A program made the position numbers and the translations under genes. DNA of 64,000 nt from Clostridiales bacterium (GTDB lineage: Bacteria > Bacillota > Clostridia > Saccharofermentanales > Saccharofermentanaceae). Each line of letters begins with the position of its first letter. The first letter of the stretch is position 1. The stretch spans positions 1 to 64,000 of the forward strand of contig JAGDCV010000047.1 of the NCBI GenBank assembly GCA_017958365.1, in the 5' to 3' direction. Of the stretch, positions 21,970-31,571 are shown one piece after another. Below the pieces are notes generated by a model that did no database searches, was not told where the DNA came from, and saw only the letters and a program-made list of their open reading frames with translations.

Positions 21970-22689
21970 TTATTCAGCTGTTCTCAGCACCGCTTCACTG
22001 TAAAGCCTTACACCGAGATATGAATCGGGATGAAGGTTATCTACCATGCAGATATAAGGGAAAGCATCATACTTATCGACGATGTACGGTGTCGAGTAGA
22101 TAAATCCCGTGTTTGTATTGTTGCAGAAAGACTCGAGAGCCATAGCGAAAGAATCGCAGTGTTCCAAAGTCTCCTGATCAGGATCGCAGAATGTCCATGG
22201 AGCGATATAGTAGAAGTGCGCATCAGGTGATAAATCACTCAGATACTGCTGAATTATCATAAGGTTTCCGATGTAATAATCAGTGGTGACACCCGGATCT
22301 CTGCAGTCGTTGGTGCCGATCGCGATTACATATACATCTGCAACAGGGATCTGATCAAGAACACCGATGATGTGGGAAGAGTAGTATCCTCCTTCCGAGA
22401 TGTTATCGATCTGTCCCGGTATGTACGGCTCGAGAGGAGCGTACCACGGAACACCTCCGTTGGCATTTCCGTGCGTGATGCTGTCACCGATAAAGCATAC
22501 GTGCCCGCCTGAGGAGATATCCTCGTAGAAACTGCTCGATCTCATCTCGTCATTAAGTTTAAGTACGGGCTTGGGATGCGGAAGGATGTTTGCAAACATA
22601 AGACTTACGACAGCGAATGCAAGCACGAGCAAAGCTAGTGCCGCATAGATGAACTTTTTAAACTTCTTCGGTGTCTTTTCGCTTGTCAT
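21970..22689 (-). CDS. Membrane-anchored SGNH/GDSL hydrolase
   Basis: 239 residues. One N-terminal membrane helix (about residues 13-35) puts the catalytic domain outside the cell. FIGDSITHG holds the nucleophile Ser70, GTNDCRD gives the Asn of block III, and DNLHPDSYLG gives the Asp-x-x-His of block V, so all SGNH blocks are intact. Such enzymes remove O-acetyl or acyl groups from glycans or lipids. The start overlaps the upstream acyltransferase gene by 32 bases, and AAGGAA precedes the ATG, so the two are coupled. An opposing acyltransferase/esterase pair is an attractive reading. Confidence 0.85.
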   Translation of the reverse strand: MTSEKTPKKFKKFIYAALALLVLAFAVVSLMFANILPHPKPVLKLNDEMRSSSFYEDISSGGHVCFIGDSITHGNANGGVPWYAPLEPYIPGQIDNISEGGYYSSHIIGVLDQIPVADVYVIAIGTNDCRDPGVTTDYYIGNLMIIQQYLSDLSPDAHFYYIAPWTFCDPDQETLEHCDSFAMALESFCNNTNTGFIYSTPYIVDKYDAFPYICMVDNLHPDSYLGVRLYSEAVLRTAE

Positions 22690-23953
22690 CAGGCTTTTCC
22701 TTCATCATCTTGTATAATTCTTCCGCCGCAAGTCTTGTCCTGGCGACGATGTCTTTCTTCTTAGGGAAGCAGTAGTACAGGCAGTCGTTTGTACCGATGC
22801 AGACTATATCGCCTATCTCATACCAGTAGTAATCGGAATAGACGCTGTAGCACGCCAGAGGTCCCTGCTCGTAGTGAAGTTCTCCTTCGCATCCGTCAAG
22901 TACGAAGCCTTCTCTCGTATGCTTCAACCTGCCCGAACCTACCATATAAAGTGCCTTAAAGTCAACGATAAGGCCGATATCGCACTCCGTATCAAGGGAG
23001 TAGGTGCCGTCTTCGAGTGACTTTCTTACCATCTGCCTTTCCCATGCATACCAGTCAGGAATGTGGGAGAAAATGGTCTCAAGTCCGTTCTTCGCATGAA
23101 GCCTGCCTAATGTGTCCATCTCGTATTCTGCGCCGCAATCGTGACAGATAAACGAGATCCCTTTGCCTTCGGTGTTGCCCTCCGACATGCAGTGGGGACA
23201 CTTGTAAAGTATGCGGTGAAGTCCGTCCGCGCGAAAATCTTCCGTAACCTCAACCTTGTTCTCCTCCTGCCACTTAAAGTAGTCAAAGGAGAAGGCATCA
23301 TCGAGAGCCTGGTTTATGTCCTTTATCTTGGTTGAAGCAAGTTCCTCCTGCGAGAACAGGCACCTCATCTCGGCAGTGACCTTTACGTCTCTTTTTTGCA
23401 GATTGTTGTAAAGCGGGTCGCGCGCGAAAGCTCCGTATGTGGTTATCATGACGATCGGCACCTTCAGGCGCTTGAACAGGACTCCCATTCTTCTCGGAAG
23501 TCTAGTTGCTGTACCATCAAAAGAGTAGCTTGCCTCGGGGTACAGAAGCACACTTGAGTTGTTGTGGTGAAGTGCATGGTCCATGTCGGATACCAGCGTT
23601 ATGTCTGTAACGAACTTGGAGGTGGGGATGCAGCCAATCTGACGCATGGCCCATTCTTTGCCGACGAGACCGTCTGACGTGCAGACGATGTTGAAGCGGC
23701 GGCCCTTAAGCATCTCGAATGCCATGACAAGGTCTATGAAGCTTGAGTGATTCATGAGTATGAGCCAGGGACCGTCGCCGGCCTTTTCCATGTCGACCTC
23801 ATTGTATGAGAAACCGACTTTCTTAAGTTCCCCTCTGGTTGCGATATTACCGATCCGCGCGAGAAGGCGGTTTTGCTTGTTCGGTTTCTTGTGGACGGGT
23901 CTTGGAAGATTCATCACTTCCCGGTATGACAGGTTCCTGGTCTTGATCTTCAT
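22658..23953 (-). CDS. PlsC-like acyltransferase fused to a zinc ribbon and C-terminal domain
   Basis: 431 residues. The N-terminal half has the acyltransferase signature: NHSSFID (His69, Asp74), a YPEAS block III, and VPIVMITTYGA block IV. After about residue 245 a zinc ribbon appears: Cys252-x2-Cys255 and Cys270-x2-Cys273 (CPHC and CHDC). The last 150 residues form an unfamiliar beta-rich domain. Known PlsC proteins are half this size, so the extra part is a distinct architecture. The gene starts 1 base after the kinase stop and overlaps the SGNH gene. Acceptor unknown; a lipid or surface glycan acyltransferase is likely. Confidence 0.75.
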   Translation of the reverse strand: MKIKTRNLSYREVMNLPRPVHKKPNKQNRLLARIGNIATRGELKKVGFSYNEVDMEKAGDGPWLILMNHSSFIDLVMAFEMLKGRRFNIVCTSDGLVGKEWAMRQIGCIPTSKFVTDITLVSDMDHALHHNNSSVLLYPEASYSFDGTATRLPRRMGVLFKRLKVPIVMITTYGAFARDPLYNNLQKRDVKVTAEMRCLFSQEELASTKIKDINQALDDAFSFDYFKWQEENKVEVTEDFRADGLHRILYKCPHCMSEGNTEGKGISFICHDCGAEYEMDTLGRLHAKNGLETIFSHIPDWYAWERQMVRKSLEDGTYSLDTECDIGLIVDFKALYMVGSGRLKHTREGFVLDGCEGELHYEQGPLACYSVYSDYYWYEIGDIVCIGTNDCLYYCFPKKKDIVARTRLAAEELYKMMKEKPDDKRKDTEEV

Positions 23954-23954
23954 G

Positions 23955-25133
23955 TTATCTGATCTTATCAGCCAGAGGCAGTATTATCTCTACCTCGACT
24001 TTATAAAGCCCTCCGTATTCGCTGCAGTTCATATTGTACTCTCCGCCGTACTTACGCACAGACCTCCTTATATTATATATGCCGAAGCCGTGATCAGGCG
24101 AGTTCTTTGAAGATTTGAATACGACCGTGTTAACTTTCTCAGCGCTCATGTTCCGCTCGACCATGAATATGAAATTGGAGTTCTTAAGAAACTCGAGCTC
24201 TATCCTTTTGTTCTCTGAAGTAAGGTCGTTTCCGTAGAGTCTGCTTACTGCCTCTATGGCATTATCGAGAAGATTAGAGAGTATGGTAACAAGATCCGCG
24301 GCTTCGATATTAAGACCTGCAAGATCACCTGTTATCGCAAGTTCGAGTCCGCGTTTGGAGGCTTTGGAACGTTTGTCTGCGATGATGGCATCTGCGATGT
24401 CGTTTCCGCTCCTGTAGGGAGGGGCGGTGTTATCTATCTCCTCGGATATCGAATCAAGATAACCAAGAAGACCTTCCCTGTCCGAATTCTCGGCCAGATT
24501 TCTTACTGCGAGCAGGTGATTCTTCATGTCGTGTCTAACGCGTCTTAATTCAAAATTGCTCTTCATCATGGCTTCGTAGTGCGAATTGCGGGAGTCAGAA
24601 AGCTTCTTGTCTATGAGCATTAGTTCCTTGTTGTATCTGTCCTGCGAGATCAGAGGTGTCAGTACGGCTATTAGGGAAGAGAGTATTCCAACCGTAAGAT
24701 AGCAAAGTGATGATGACAGATATGAATGTTCGTGTATGACCGATCCGCACAGAAAGTTGATCGTGAGTGTGAACAGATAAACGGAAAGGATGGCGCCTTC
24801 CTCCGGTACTACAGGATCGCGCCTGGAGCTACTAACGGCAGAGGGGATCATTATTAAGACAGCGGCAAGCGCACTTACCGGATAGAACATGAGATGGAGC
24901 ATCTGCTCGTCTCCGTACTGCTCAAGTGCGGTAAGAGCCCGGTGGAAGTCAAATGCGATCGTTAATACCGTTAATACGGCCAGCACGGCTGAAAATATCA
25001 GACGCATGATCTTTCCCGATTTAACGGATTCATTCAGAGTCTCTTTCCTTGCGTATATGTAATACCAGAGGATAAAGGAACCCGTAAGGACAAGAAGTAT
25101 GGTTATGAGAATGGCTAAGGCGTAAGAAGTCAT
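23955..25133 (-). CDS. GHKL sensor histidine kinase (AgrC-like)
   Basis: 392 residues. About six membrane helices fill residues 1-165. The phospho-acceptor box is RHDMKNHL (His201), then the GHKL ATPase with the N-box ILSNLLDNAIEA and G-box HGFGIYNIRRSV. This is the HATPase_c_5 branch of AgrC/FsrC/VirS, many of which sense peptides. Its ATG overlaps the LytTR regulator stop by 4 bases. The neighbours (M13 peptidase and FtsX-type ABC transporter) suggest it watches an envelope peptide. No AgrD- or AgrB-like gene is present. Confidence 0.9.
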   Translation of the reverse strand: MTSYALAILITILLVLTGSFILWYYIYARKETLNESVKSGKIMRLIFSAVLAVLTVLTIAFDFHRALTALEQYGDEQMLHLMFYPVSALAAVLIMIPSAVSSSRRDPVVPEEGAILSVYLFTLTINFLCGSVIHEHSYLSSSLCYLTVGILSSLIAVLTPLISQDRYNKELMLIDKKLSDSRNSHYEAMMKSNFELRRVRHDMKNHLLAVRNLAENSDREGLLGYLDSISEEIDNTAPPYRSGNDIADAIIADKRSKASKRGLELAITGDLAGLNIEAADLVTILSNLLDNAIEAVSRLYGNDLTSENKRIELEFLKNSNFIFMVERNMSAEKVNTVVFKSSKNSPDHGFGIYNIRRSVRKYGGEYNMNCSEYGGLYKVEVEIILPLADKIR

Positions 25134-25831
25134 CTTGCTGTCTTTCTCACATAATCGTATAGATCGTTCTTGAAGCCTTGCATGTACGACCTGCTGATGC
25201 CCACAACGCTTCCGTCATCGAGAACGGCTTCCTTATCACGGATCCTTCCGACATGAGCAAGGTTGATGGCGGAACAGCGGTGAACGCGTCTTATCGTATC
25301 GCATTCTTTATTGAAGAGCGTAATGGCATCGGTAAGCTTCATCCTCGTGGATATCGTTCCCGAAGCCGTGATTATCCTTACGTTGTTGTTATCCGATTCG
25401 ATGAACAGGACCTCGGAAGGAGCTACGAGTATCTCCTCTTTTTCCGACCTTATCAGGATGCCTTTCCTGCTTGCTTTCATTACCCGGATGTCCTCGAGTG
25501 TCTGCCTTAACTTACTGTCATCGACAGGTTTTTGAAGGAAGCGGTATGCGTTTACCTCATATCCTTCTATTGCCATTTCCGTGTGGCTTGTAAGAAAGAC
25601 AAGAGGGATATCCTTGTTGCTTTCGCGGATTATCCTCGCAGCGGACATTCCGTCCATGCCTTTCATCTCGATGTCAAGGAATATGAGGTCATACGACAGG
25701 GAGGATTCAAGCAGTTCTTCTGCACAGGAAAAAGGCTCAACTGTAACGTCGAGCCTTGGGATGATGCTTAATATCTTCTGTTCGAGATCTTTAAGAAAGA
25801 CCTTCTCATCATCGCATATAGCGATACGCAT
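25130..25831 (-). CDS. LytTR-family response regulator
   Basis: 233 residues. The receiver domain has the acidic pair Asp7/Asp8, phospho-acceptor Asp53 (IFLDIEMKGMDG) and conserved Lys in LQKPV. A LytTR DNA-binding domain fills residues about 135-230 (FIESDNNNVRI, RRVHRCSAINLAHV, ISRSYMQGFK). LytTR proteins bind 9-bp direct repeats spaced by two helical turns, and such repeats lie upstream of the M13 peptidase gene at the head of this operon (31151-31180). A GGGGG ribosome binding site precedes the ATG. Confidence 0.93.
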   Translation of the reverse strand: MRIAICDDEKVFLKDLEQKILSIIPRLDVTVEPFSCAEELLESSLSYDLIFLDIEMKGMDGMSAARIIRESNKDIPLVFLTSHTEMAIEGYEVNAYRFLQKPVDDSKLRQTLEDIRVMKASRKGILIRSEKEEILVAPSEVLFIESDNNNVRIITASGTISTRMKLTDAITLFNKECDTIRRVHRCSAINLAHVGRIRDKEAVLDDGSVVGISRSYMQGFKNDLYDYVRKTAR

Positions 25832-25863: not shown

Positions 25864-26538
25864 TTATCCAATGAGTTTACCGTTGTCGAGCCTTACGATC
25901 CTTGAACCGTACTCACTGTTTTTCTCAGAGTGAGTTACCTGAAGGATCGTCATTCCGTTTTCCTTGTTGATCCTGCCAAAAAGATCCATTATGTTCTCTC
26001 CGGAAGCCTTATCGAGGTTTCCGGTGGGCTCGTCTGCAAGGATGATCTCGGGTTCTCCGATGAGAGCTCTTGCAATTGCCACTCTTTGCTGCTGTCCGCC
26101 GGAAAGCTTCGCAGGCATTGCTTTTCCTTTGTCCGTAAGCTCCGTTATGTCGAGGATCTCATTGAGTTTCTTCTTTGTGTCCTCGTTGTATTTTCCTGCG
26201 ACTTTCAGGGGGAGGAGGATGTTGTCTTCTACGGTAAGGTTCTGGACAAGATTATAGAACTGGAATATGAATCCGATCTTGCCGAGTCTTAAGTCTGAAA
26301 GCTTATTCTCCTTGAGCTTTCCGATGTTGTTGCCGCAGACAACTATGTCTCCCGTGTAGATCCTGTCGAGTCCGCCTATGAGATACAGAAGAGTTGATTT
26401 ACCGGAACCTGAAGGTCCCATGAGTGATACGAATTCACCTTTCCGGATCGTGAGATCGGCACCTTCAAGGACCTTTACTTCGAGGTCTCCCTTACCGAAT
26501 GACTTGTATACCTTATCGACTGTAATTATCGTTTCCAT
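25864..26538 (-). CDS. ABC transporter ATP-binding protein (MacB/LolD type)
   Basis: 224 residues. Walker A GPSGSGKST (residues 41-49), the LSGGQQQRVAIARAL signature and Walker B IILADEPTGNLD mark the LolD/MacB/BceA group that pairs with FtsX-fold permeases. These complexes often act by mechanotransmission on envelope lipoproteins or peptides rather than by classic transport. Its partner is the permease gene 15 bases upstream. AAGGAG precedes the ATG. Confidence 0.95.
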   Translation of the reverse strand: METIITVDKVYKSFGKGDLEVKVLEGADLTIRKGEFVSLMGPSGSGKSTLLYLIGGLDRIYTGDIVVCGNNIGKLKENKLSDLRLGKIGFIFQFYNLVQNLTVEDNILLPLKVAGKYNEDTKKKLNEILDITELTDKGKAMPAKLSGGQQQRVAIARALIGEPEIILADEPTGNLDKASGENIMDLFGRINKENGMTILQVTHSEKNSEYGSRIVRLDNGKLIG

Positions 26539-26553
26539 TTTTGATTCTCCTTA

Positions 26554-29043
26554 TTATTCGTACTTCAGTTCTTCTGATATCTTCATCTTGCGAAGTTCCT
26601 TGAACGGGATCAGGGTGGTAAGCATGAATACGAACAGTATCAATGCGTAGTACTTGATCATCGATCCCGAATCGAATACCCCGTCCTTGAGGATATTCAG
26701 GTCTCCTTCCGTGATCACCTTAAGCAAGTGTCCCAGTATGTTGTAGAGTATGGGAGTTGCCAGTGCGGCAAACAGGGAAGACAGTCCGATCGAGAAGAGG
26801 CTCTCGAGGAAGATAAGCTTGTAAAGTTTCTTCCTTCCCAATGCCACCGAGTACAAAAGTGCAAGCTCTCTTTTACGTGTCATGAATCCGAGCGCCTGAT
26901 TACCGGCTATTCCGATGAGCGTAAGAGCTATGCTTCCGATGACTACCGCTACAAGAACACCGATGAGACCCTTCGACTGAGTCTCGTATTCTTCTATGAG
27001 ATCATTCATTGTCTTGATCTCGATGATTGAAGTCTGAGTGTTATTCTCGATAAGTTCCTTAACCAGTTCAGGATCGTCTGCATTTATCATGAGGTTTCCT
27101 AAGGCATGCTGGAACAGATGATCATACAGATCGCTGTTGATTATCACTGTGGACGTGGATATCATGGCCGTATCCGAAGTGTCCATGGTATCAGCGAGTG
27201 TAAGTACCAGGGTGCTCGGGAAATCTGTGTCAGGATTGAGTGTGATCTCTACCTCATCTCCAATTGATAATCCGAGACTATCTGCTTTGCTTTCGGAAAG
27301 GACAACTTCATTGTCAGCCAGTCCGAATCCTTCGGAAGGAAGATCCGTCAACAGACTGTGTTCCGTGTCGGATATGATCTGCAGATATGTGGAATTGGAT
27401 TCACCGATAGCTCCGTAAAGTGAAGTTGAGTAGATATAATCTGCAGCTTCAACCCCGTCGATATGAGTTACGAATCTGTAGTCGTGGTCCTCATCGCTCT
27501 GGTAAACCGTCACCAGAATGTTGCAGTTATAGTCAGGTGTTACGAGTTCCTTCTTCAACGTGGTTCCGATACTGCTTATAAGAAGCGACAGTATCATCGA
27601 GGTGATGCACAATACGGCAGTGCCCATTATTATCTTGTTCCTGGAAATATTCTCGGAAGCAAGCTGGGCTACCGGCATCTTATGCTTCCTGAACAGGGAA
27701 GACAAAAGCCTTGATGAGACTTTGATCATGTAGGGAACAAGAACTGCAAGAGCCGTTATGCCGGTGACAAGGGAAACTGCCAGCGTGATAAAGTTCTTGT
27801 TGAGAAATCCCGTTACGAGGCAGATGACAAGCAGGATGATTCCTGCATACATTCTTGTCCATGTATATTTGAACTCAGTGTCTTTGTTGTTGAAGATGAT
27901 GTCTCTTATCGGAGTCTTAACAGCCTTGAGAAGTTCGTAAAGCGGATAAGCACTCTCGATCAGTATTGCTCCAATGAATATAAACAGATAGACGTACCAG
28001 GGAGTGTTGCCTATGTAATCACCTGCATCGAATCTCTGACCGTCTGCGGACTGTAATGTAAACATGTTGGTGAACATTGATTCTTTGACACCCGAATATA
28101 ACAAAGATCCGACCGTTGTTCCGAGTAAAGCATACATTATGTTCTCGATAAGAAGAATGAATGCTGTCTTATTCCTTCTTACACCGAGGCTTCTCAGTGT
28201 TCCTATGACTGACATTCTCTCGTTTACGATCTTCTCTGCAAGACTCATTGTCACAAACACCACAAGAAGGAATGAGATCAGGAACAGAAGATAGAACAGG
28301 TTATTGATCTGTTCAATTCCGTCTGCTCTCATCATGTCATCCATGGACTGTATCTGAGCCTTCGGATCATTGCCCTTAAGCATCGTTACGACATCCTGCA
28401 CCTGATTGTCGTCGAGAACATCTATCATCCATATGGAATTCTCGATAGTGCGGGTACAGCTGATAAGTCTTGTGTTCTCGGGGGTTACTATGACGACATT
28501 ACCGTTTATGATCTGATTAGATACATCGATGATGTCTACGATGGTAAGCTCGATCTCATTCTCGTCCCTTGTCTCGAGGGTGATGGTATCACCGATATCC
28601 TTTCCGAAAGCATCAGCATAGTCACGGTTTATTATCGCCGTGGTATCGTCAATTGGTGCCGAATCGGGAAGCAGGGAAAGGGCATAGGCCTCGTTCATGT
28701 CAGTGAACGAGTAGACATCGATCGTTTCTTCAAAAGAATATGCGTAGAAGGTCGGATCCTTGGAGTATTCATACTCGCTCAGAAATGAGATTCCCACTTT
28801 GTTGATGGCGTATGAATCTTCCACGCCGTCAAGGATCTCATTTGATGATCCGGATACCAAGATATCCATCTTACCGACCATTTGCATGGCATAGCCCTTA
28901 AGAAGTGTCTGGATATTGTTGCTCATATCAAACGCCAGAAGAGCTGCAAAGCTTGCGAAAACAATGCAGACAAGAAGAACAAGAAGTCTTAACGGTCTGG
29001 CAAAGATGTTTTTAAGTGAATGTTTAATAATAATTCCCATCAA
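26554..29043 (-). CDS. FtsX-family ABC transporter permease
   Basis: 829 residues. One N-terminal helix (about 15-38) is followed by a large extracytoplasmic domain, an FtsX core with three helices (about 250-365), a middle helix pair (about 395-445), a second extracytoplasmic region and a second FtsX core (about 690-820). This duplicated layout is that of MacB-like/YtrF-like or BceB-related permeases. It would form the transmembrane part of the complex with the ATPase encoded just downstream. AAGGAG lies upstream of the ATG; it begins 10 bases after the M13 peptidase stop, so they share an mRNA. Confidence 0.9.
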   Translation of the reverse strand: MMGIIIKHSLKNIFARPLRLLVLLVCIVFASFAALLAFDMSNNIQTLLKGYAMQMVGKMDILVSGSSNEILDGVEDSYAINKVGISFLSEYEYSKDPTFYAYSFEETIDVYSFTDMNEAYALSLLPDSAPIDDTTAIINRDYADAFGKDIGDTITLETRDENEIELTIVDIIDVSNQIINGNVVIVTPENTRLISCTRTIENSIWMIDVLDDNQVQDVVTMLKGNDPKAQIQSMDDMMRADGIEQINNLFYLLFLISFLLVVFVTMSLAEKIVNERMSVIGTLRSLGVRRNKTAFILLIENIMYALLGTTVGSLLYSGVKESMFTNMFTLQSADGQRFDAGDYIGNTPWYVYLFIFIGAILIESAYPLYELLKAVKTPIRDIIFNNKDTEFKYTWTRMYAGIILLVICLVTGFLNKNFITLAVSLVTGITALAVLVPYMIKVSSRLLSSLFRKHKMPVAQLASENISRNKIIMGTAVLCITSMILSLLISSIGTTLKKELVTPDYNCNILVTVYQSDEDHDYRFVTHIDGVEAADYIYSTSLYGAIGESNSTYLQIISDTEHSLLTDLPSEGFGLADNEVVLSESKADSLGLSIGDEVEITLNPDTDFPSTLVLTLADTMDTSDTAMISTSTVIINSDLYDHLFQHALGNLMINADDPELVKELIENNTQTSIIEIKTMNDLIEEYETQSKGLIGVLVAVVIGSIALTLIGIAGNQALGFMTRKRELALLYSVALGRKKLYKLIFLESLFSIGLSSLFAALATPILYNILGHLLKVITEGDLNILKDGVFDSGSMIKYYALILFVFMLTTLIPFKELRKMKISEELKYE

Positions 29044-29053
29044 ATAAATCTCC

Positions 29054-31081
29054 TTACCATCTTGTTATTCTGTCTTCAGGTGCGACATACATGCCGTCGC
29101 CCTCTTCTACGCCGTAGATCTCATAAAAGGAGTCGAACAGCGGTACTACCGCATTTACACGTATCCTGTCCGGGCTGTGAACGTCCAGATACAGGTAATC
29201 CAAAGCGTTGTTCTTAGGCATTACGGATGCCCAAATACGGGCGTAACTCTCGAAGATCTCCTGTCTTTGTTCGTTGTTTGATGCCTGTCTTAATACGCAC
29301 TCGAGACCGCTTATGTCCGCAAGGTTCTCTCCGAGCGTAAGTTCACCGTCAACAGGGTGGATATCAAGGACCGTCTGTTCTGAATAGTACTGTGAGACGA
29401 GATCCGCCATCTGATCAAAGGCTTCACGGTCTTCCTGCGGCATCCATTCGGGGTTGTAGTTACCGTTCATGTCGAACAGCATTCCGTGATTGTCAAATGC
29501 GTGGGATATCTCATGTCCTACGACCGAGCCGATACCACCGAGGTTCTGCCAGTAAGTATTATCTGAACTGTAGAACGGATCGTTCATGATGGCTAATGTT
29601 ATGTTAATGGCATTCATGTCAGGCAGATAGCATGCGTTGACTATCTGGGGAGGCATGCCTTCGAAGCCGTTTCTCTCGATGCCGTTAATGAGTTTGTCCA
29701 TGTCCTTCTCATACTGTCTTATGTTCAAGTTATGAAGAGTATCAAAGGCCGAATGACCTATGATGTGCTCATCTTCAGGATCGACCTCGTGAGGTTCGTC
29801 GGCACCGATGTAGAATTCCATGTTGTTGAGTTTGTTTATGATGGCAGCCTTACCCTCATCGCTTAACCATTCACACTCGTTAATGATAACTATGTATTCA
29901 TCAACCAGGGCATGTGTTATGGCAGTAACATCTTCTACCGTCTCTTCGTCGTAGTAACGCTCTGCATACTCCTCTCCGAGTTGATCCTGGAACTGGGTCA
30001 TGATCGTATCAAGTGCATATCTGTCGTTGGAGAAGAGGAGCTCAGTGCCGCCGTATTCTTCAGGCAGCATGGATGAGAAGCTGTTGATAAAACTAAGAAG
30101 TGCGATATCCTGCCAAGCTTCAAGATTCTCCTCGATAAGAAGTGAATCGATAGTCTGAAGCTGTCCTTCTTCCCAAAGATATACTCCGTCCGCGGGATTG
30201 TCGGTAAGTCCCATCGTGCGCATGATGCCTTCCGAACCGACATTGGGACAAAGCTCATCTAACTCTTCGTTTGTTCTGTACAACGACAGCTTCATTGATT
30301 CGCCCCAGTCCTCTGAGATTATCTTGACCAGTTCAAGATCGGTACCGTTAGCGATATCCATGATTAGCGAAGCGTCACCAAGACTTCTTTCATCAGCCCC
30401 GGCCTCATCCATTCCGAAGTCGATAAGAAGCGACTTCATTCTGGTTGCTATGCTTTGTGCGTAATATCCGCCGTTTATTATCAATTCGAGCGAATCGCCC
30501 GTCGGACTTGTAAAGGGAACGATATTGATCGATCCTGCTGACGAATTTGCAAGGCTCGTGTCTATCCTTCCTCCGAACAGGGGATTAACTCCCCACTCGG
30601 AATAAAGCATTCCGCATACATCAAGATATTCGTCTATGGTTTGTGTGCCGAGGATCTGATCTGCAACATCGTTCATGTAGGCGATATCTTCGTCATTCAT
30701 AAAGTAGCCGCCGGTAGAAGCGTCAAGCAGCTGGTAATATGCATCGTAGATCAACTGCTCGTTAGATCCCGGAGCATACGAATCCCTGTTTCCGTCAACT
30801 ATCTCGTGAATGATCTGTTCGAGCTGATCGTCGAGCATCAATTGCAGGTCCGTGAACGATCCTGCGTTTCCGTCAGCCAGGGTGATGTCAGCATCATAAA
30901 GATACTGCGCATTGATGTATCCGTAGAAATCGTCCTGAGCCCGTATCGCGGATATGTCCTGTGCTTCCTCCAAGACTTCTCCTGTCTCGGACGGCTCGGT
31001 TTCTTCGGTAGTCTGCAAAGTGCAGCCGGATATGGCTACCGCCGATGCCAAAGCAAGTGAAATTAACTTCCCTTTTCTCAT
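29054..31081 (-). CDS. M13-family metallopeptidase lipoprotein (PepO/neprilysin-like)
   Basis: 675 residues. A lipoprotein signal with lipobox AISGC (Cys20) anchors it to the outer face of the membrane. The zinc site is HEISH (His523, Glu524, His527) with the third ligand in ENLADISGLE, as in neprilysin and PepO; NACYLPDMNAI stands for the substrate-binding NAYY motif. M13 enzymes cut peptides of up to about 40 residues. It heads an operon with an FtsX-type ABC pair and an AgrC/AgrA-like system. AAGGAG precedes the ATG, and a -10 box and LytTR-type repeats lie upstream. Confidence 0.93.
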   Translation of the reverse strand: MRKGKLISLALASAVAISGCTLQTTEETEPSETGEVLEEAQDISAIRAQDDFYGYINAQYLYDADITLADGNAGSFTDLQLMLDDQLEQIIHEIVDGNRDSYAPGSNEQLIYDAYYQLLDASTGGYFMNDEDIAYMNDVADQILGTQTIDEYLDVCGMLYSEWGVNPLFGGRIDTSLANSSAGSINIVPFTSPTGDSLELIINGGYYAQSIATRMKSLLIDFGMDEAGADERSLGDASLIMDIANGTDLELVKIISEDWGESMKLSLYRTNEELDELCPNVGSEGIMRTMGLTDNPADGVYLWEEGQLQTIDSLLIEENLEAWQDIALLSFINSFSSMLPEEYGGTELLFSNDRYALDTIMTQFQDQLGEEYAERYYDEETVEDVTAITHALVDEYIVIINECEWLSDEGKAAIINKLNNMEFYIGADEPHEVDPEDEHIIGHSAFDTLHNLNIRQYEKDMDKLINGIERNGFEGMPPQIVNACYLPDMNAINITLAIMNDPFYSSDNTYWQNLGGIGSVVGHEISHAFDNHGMLFDMNGNYNPEWMPQEDREAFDQMADLVSQYYSEQTVLDIHPVDGELTLGENLADISGLECVLRQASNNEQRQEIFESYARIWASVMPKNNALDYLYLDVHSPDRIRVNAVVPLFDSFYEIYGVEEGDGMYVAPEDRITRW

Positions 31082-31110: not shown

Positions 31111-31116
31111 ACTATA
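31111..31116 (-). promoter_or_regulatory. -10 box of the M13 peptidase operon
   Basis: Minus-strand TATAGT, about 30 bases before the ATG. The -35 position (31134-31139) reads GAAGGG, a poor match, as expected for a promoter needing an activator. Confidence 0.55.
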
Positions 31117-31150
31117 ACCCTTTGCTTTGCACTCCCTTCGAAAATGTGGC

Positions 31151-31180
31151 GAATGGTACCGCGGGCGTTGTGAATGGCAC
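31151..31180 (-). promoter_or_regulatory. Pair of 9-bp direct repeats, likely LytTR regulator site
   Basis: On the minus strand GTGCCATTC (31180-31172) and GTACCATTC (31159-31151) are separated by 12 bases, a 21-bp period, the geometry recognised by AgrA-like LytTR dimers. The nearer copy ends about 11 bases before the weak -35 position of the M13 operon, where an activator would bind. Confidence 0.65.
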
Positions 31181-31209
31181 AAAAAAAGCGGACATTGCTG
31201 TCCGCTTCT
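31181..31209 (-). terminator. Terminator after the Tic20-like membrane protein gene
   Basis: AAGCGGACA (31186-31194) and TGTCCGCTT (31199-31207) form a 9-bp stem with a TTGC loop. On the minus strand the hairpin is followed by a run of T (seven A on the plus strand, 31181-31187). It ends the upstream unit just before the LytTR repeats. Confidence 0.92.
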
Positions 31210-31232: not shown

Positions 31233-31571
31233 TTATCTCAAGAACTCAAGCTTCTCGCCGATTACAGGTACTGTCCATGTGCTGTTCTGGCAAGCCTTAA
31301 CGATACCGATGATCGTAAATACGAAGAGGATCAGGCATCCGACAACGGATACGAGCTGACCTAAGAAAGGAACGATATTTACAAGACCGAATACAACATA
31401 GCAGATGCTGATAATGATACCGTTGTTAGCATGATTCCTTACATAAGGATTGTTCTTTTCAGGCTCAATCGTAAGACCCAATACCCAGAAGAAACCGACA
31501 TAGCATAATACGGCAATAAGCTTAGAATGATCAGGACGTGCGCCTGCAGACTGATTATTTGTGTTCTCCAT
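31233..31571 (-). CDS. DUF4870/Tic20-like small membrane protein
   Basis: 112 residues with three membrane segments (about 18-35, 50-68 and 70-92). HSKLIAVLCYVGFFW and NNPYVRNHANNG fit the DUF4870 (Tic20-like) family of small bacterial membrane proteins of unknown role. A GGAGG ribosome binding site lies about 7 bases before the ATG. It is a single-gene unit with its own terminator. A perfect palindrome (31608-31620) lies in its promoter. Confidence 0.8.
   Translation of the reverse strand: MENTNNQSAGARPDHSKLIAVLCYVGFFWVLGLTIEPEKNNPYVRNHANNGIIISICYVVFGLVNIVPFLGQLVSVVGCLILFVFTIIGIVKACQNSTWTVPVIGEKLEFLR

Follow-up and report, generated by a model that had tools for sequence, protein, structure and literature searches.

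A conserved direct-repeat pair ahead of an M13 peptidase operon: a predicted autoregulatory LytTR operator in uncultured Clostridia

Is the short direct repeat that lies ahead of an M13 peptidase operon in a Clostridiales bacterium the operator of a regulator encoded within that same operon? The window analysed here is a stretch of 64,000 nucleotides (positions 1 to 64,000 of contig JAGDCV010000047.1, assembly GCA_017958365.1), and the genes of the operon lie on its minus strand. The leading gene (29054-31081, start at 31081) encodes an M13 peptidase of the neprilysin/PepO type, recognized by its Pfam M13 domains and its match to the NCBIfam PepO model; it bears the lipoprotein signal ISGC and intact HEISH and ENLAD motifs, with C20, H523, E524, H527, E585, N586 and D589 as the invariant residues. 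Downstream, across gaps of 10, 15 and 32 nt, follow an FtsX/MacB-type ABC permease with two FtsX domains (26554-29043), a LolD/MacB-type ABC ATPase (25864-26538) and a LytTR response regulator, the proposed binder of the operator (25130-25831). The regulator gene overlaps by 4 nt that of an AgrC/ComD-like GHKL histidine kinase (23955-25133), which matches the AgrC model weakly. Directly after the kinase come genes for an acyltransferase (22658-23953) and, overlapping it, a GDSL/SGNH lipase-like protein (21970-22689). Both are possibly operonic, the acyltransferase because equally long ORFs (431, 239 and 164 aa) recur in this downstream position in a close relative, G052.

The preliminary description of this locus had credited the regulator with a LytTR domain, and both a receiver (PF00072) and a LytTR domain (PF04397) were found, the pairing that marks regulators of the AgrCA/ComDE/VirSR type. 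The kinase (PF14501, GHKL) agrees with the membrane kinases of such systems in its hydrophobic N-terminal segments, and carries the H-box RHDMKNH, which we take to be of the HPK10 type. Profile comparison matches the LytTR domain to the structures of AgrA (E 4e-4) and ComE (E 4e-5). The FhRhHRS motif with which LytTR proteins bind DNA (PMC4227749) has the counterpart IRRVHRC in the window regulator, and the H184 and R185 of this motif are invariant across eleven divergent relatives.

On the minus strand, GTGCCATTC (31180-31172) and GTACCATTC (31159-31151) are identical at 8 of 9 positions, with the 12-bp gap and 21-bp period originally reported for them; LytTR-family operators likewise consist of two direct repeats, each some 9 bp long, with 10-13 bp between them and two helical turns from one to the next. 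The geometry had been likened to that of AgrA-like proteins, and while the 9-12-9 spacing is indeed present, the conserved element is longer, with a 13-8-13 layout that is VirR-box-like. Its units are a distal repeat at 31178-31166 and a proximal repeat at 31157-31145, and the window pair can be written GCCATTCACAACG-N8-ACCATTCGCCACA, or in full, as a predicted 34-nt LytTR operator (31145-31178), GCCATTCACAACG-cccgcggt-ACCATTCGCCACA. The consensus of the 13-bp repeats in 38 relatives, again with 8 bp between them, is GCAATTCACCACA; one of the 38 rows, L192, is mis-sited owing to a wrong start coordinate (leave-one-out score -3.6), whereas the operon counts below use the right one.

Taken alone the window pair is modest, suggestive evidence, because when the 99-nt intergenic sequence is shuffled, 18% of trials yield a 9-mer repeat with no more than one mismatch at some period, although only 0.43% do so at period 21. 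A PWM built from the 38 aligned relatives without the window, mis-sited row included, gave the window site 28.5 bits, whereas the second-best place in the window, both strands considered, reached 6.4 bits; the iid expectation for a score of 28.5 bits is 0.001 per genome. The pattern GTRCCATTC-N12-GTRCCATTC, with up to three mismatches allowed, has a single match in the whole 1.87-Mb genome.

Beyond the repeats lies the -10 element that had been proposed for this promoter, TATAGT (31116-31111), 28 nt past the operator; this distance is 27-29 nt in most relatives. As for the weak -35 that had also been proposed, the repeats do end just upstream of the -35 position, but no recognizable -35 hexamer occupies it, the bases at a 17-nt spacer from TATAGT being GAAGGG, and a promoter scan of the window reported no -35/-10 pair in the M13 upstream region. 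On the other side, the terminator said to insulate the unit is present: an intrinsic terminator on the minus strand (31181-31207, comprising 31207-31186 and then a T run to 31181) abuts the operator. It serves an upstream gene (31233-31571) and lies between that gene and the operon; the gene encodes a small membrane protein, DUF4870-like by a match below the curated cut-off.

M13 homologues occur in 71 of the 85 genomes of the genus. We fetched 60 neighbourhoods, assigned gene order by BLAST, and later added from named genomes 10 loci with the regulator and 15 without it. The M13-FtsX-ABC core does not vary, while the regulator-kinase pair follows it in only some of the operons. The repeat pair precedes every one of the 39 operons in which a LytTR regulator and kinase come immediately after the core and none of the 43 in which they do not; this count leaves out two loci of unusual gene order (L191 and L195) and four neighbourhoods that end before the regulator position. 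Each of the 39 regulator-bearing operons has period 21, even though 19-23 was allowed, and consensus scores are at least 18 of 26 in these, against at most 16 in the regulator-free ones. Among the loci added from named genomes, the pair is found in all 10 with the regulator and in none of the 15 without. The M13 tree, a quick one, has supported branches on which the regulator label changes at least seven times in all, and in each of the 7 independent gains or losses the site changes with the regulator (sign test p=0.016). Because the scoring consensus had been derived from the very promoters being scored, we also ran a consensus-free test, in which a 13-mer self-repeat at period 21 appears in 34/39 operons with the regulator and 2/43 without. 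Thus the proposed test of the idea, that the repeats be conserved upstream of homologous operons, was passed on the strength of the regulator linkage, the gains and losses, and the near-constant distance to the -10.

The same comparison bears on two other readings of the site. Shuffling, as noted, readily produces some repeat in a spacer of this length, but that the pair is such a chance repeat is scarcely credible given its conservation, fixed period and near-fixed -10 distance in divergent species; comparative conservation rules out a chance origin. Alternatively, the operator might serve another LytTR protein: the genome encodes a second one, paired with a DUF6608 protein on contig C37, which could in principle bind here. 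This we consider very improbable, since the site comes with the operon-linked regulator (39/39 against 0/43), and the C37 operon has period-21 repeats of its own, TGCATCTTAG/TGCAACTTGT, which differ from those studied here. In the C37 locus (L001:271-340), where the LytTR gene is accompanied by genes for the DUF6608 membrane protein and an alpha/beta hydrolase, the repeats lie above a possible TAAAGT -10, an arrangement that may reflect LRS-like autoregulation.

Some loci depart from the simple rule of a regulator directly downstream. In L191 (YAD3003) the M13 operon has a site, and the regulator and kinase lie in an adjacent upstream operon with its own site; in L195/L133 an additional DUF4003 gene stands between the site and M13, which are ~1.1 kb apart. 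Both L191 and L195 fit the operator idea once the gene order is read. L049 only looks like an exception: an additional 106-aa ORF intervenes, and the pair lies ahead of it, ~445 nt upstream. Regulator-free M13 operons (L046, L052, L054, L057, L090 and others) often have TTAAGGTT-type repeats upstream of M13 instead, with self-repeats at period 22 in 14/43 and at period 33 in 17/43. This 11-bp phasing suggests an OmpR-type regulator; possibly the regulator has been swapped on a constant M13-FtsX-ABC operon.

What the sequences show is a conserved element that is strictly tied to the regulator and stands at a near-fixed distance from the -10, together with the gene order. From these we infer binding, its dependence on phosphorylation, activation rather than repression, and a signal. 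The self-regulation suggested in the preliminary description gains support from the linkage of site and regulator, and it is highly probable that the operon's own LytTR regulator uses the repeat pair as its operator, for positive autoregulation. The AgrC/ComD-like kinase would sense an envelope or peptide signal and phosphorylate the regulator; two regulator LytTR domains would then sit on the same face of the helix, bound to the two 13-bp repeats (21 bp being two turns), and recruit RNA polymerase to a promoter that has a -10 but no real -35. Peptidase, ABC transporter, regulator and kinase would be raised together. A peptide is a plausible signal by analogy, because PepO degrades signalling peptides in streptococci (PMC5167397). 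The same regulator might instead bind the site as a repressor, keeping the operon off until a signal relieves repression, as LytTR repression is known for CoxC, where the operator overlaps the -35 (PMC11347149). We judge this unlikely: with 28 nt between its end and the -10, the pair lies immediately above the -35 position, which is the placement of an activator site, and a promoter with no recognizable -35 also speaks against repression.

Among known systems, the VirR boxes of Clostridium perfringens come as a pair of imperfect 12-bp direct repeats with 7-8 nt between them, within a 34-nt region immediately above the -35 (PMC2838878, PMC2688746). As in VirSR, a LytTR response regulator is present here, and the operator equals that two-box layout and length. 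The VirR box CCAGTTNTNCAC presumably matches the C-A-x-T-T-x-x-x-C-A-C frame of the window repeats. Unlike in VirSR, the operator precedes the regulator's own operon, which also encodes an M13 peptidase and an FtsX-type transporter, and both the repeat consensus and the bacterial family differ. With AgrA, ComE and BlpR the system shares paired direct repeats above the promoter and the prospect of autoregulation via the regulator's own operon. The BlpR site, ACCATTCAG (PMC4739721), resembles ACCATTCGC here, with the core ACCATTC corresponding to its start, but conservation in the present repeats runs four bases further (CCAC). No AgrD/ComC-type pheromone peptide gene with a processing exporter was recognized in the operon or among the listed ORFs, in which small peptides were sampled non-exhaustively. 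The LytTR repeats of S. mutans, 9 bp with a 12-bp gap, lie just above the -35 and mediate autoregulation (PMC6193735), and so share with the window pair the 9-12-9 geometry and, as predicted here, autoregulation. In such an LRS, however, the regulator lacks a receiver and a membrane inhibitor stands in place of receiver and kinase, both of which the window operon encodes.

How far does the operator reach beyond this operon? A degenerate pair pattern with up to two mismatches occurs at 79 places in 46 of the 85 genomes, against 3 for a backward control, and many of these sites are not before M13. Genes adjoining them encode Rce1-like CPBP peptidases (L130, L140, L142, L143), S41 peptidases (L139, L148 and the second gene in L130), M48 peptidases (L145, L151), clostripain C11 (L136, L147), an alpha/beta hydrolase (L138) and a DUF4003-regulator-kinase operon (L146). 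For comparison, VirR of C. perfringens controls a clostripain gene. In a rough null of 63 nearby ORFs no classic peptidase family was among the 25 commonest Pfam families, a tally apart from 33 rarer ones. We regard the peptidase genes beside sites as a qualitative enrichment, and some of the sites could belong to paralogous LytTR regulators. Scanning for further pairs, as had been suggested, thus finds them across the genus; the window genome (80% complete) has one convincing site. Relaxed patterns added four matches there, of which the best (C51, 1 mismatch), the one inspected, lies inside a coding gene and the others have 2 mismatches, and we set aside a larger regulon within this 80% complete assembly; a C11 peptidase was sought in it and not found.

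Two further observations came from this survey. In G052 (L144:596-892) the 98-aa ORF behind one such pair has a double-glycine-like leader (LNLNDLKSVYGG) and possibly encodes a secreted peptide; a response-regulator-like ORF and another ORF come next. Separately, identical copies of CAACTTACCACTAACTTACCACTATTTACGAC occur at three places in two genomes (L094, which is G001:C4; G001:C35; G081:C41), and this sequence probably belongs to a repeated or mobile element and is not an operator.

Our literature search turned up no paper on LytTR in combination with M13 peptidase. The type of LytTR switch is already known; what appears to be undescribed is a connection between it and a set of envelope peptidases. 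Tentatively, a LytTR two-component system may govern an envelope-peptidase regulon in this rumen-associated clostridial lineage. Its core would be the M13 lipoprotein and exporter, joined in some species by peptidases of the CPBP, S41, M48 and clostripain types under the same operator. The system may serve to detect and remove peptides that are extracellular or membrane-bound, with the peptidase feeding back on its own signal. The analysis provides an exact predicted operator and a putative regulon for an apparently undescribed two-component system of uncultured gut and rumen Clostridia. Since regulator and operator come and go together while the M13-FtsX-ABC core stays, the family amounts to a natural experiment in promoter rewiring, and a common operator before M13, S41, M48, CPBP and clostripain genes suggests that one signal controls surface proteolysis.
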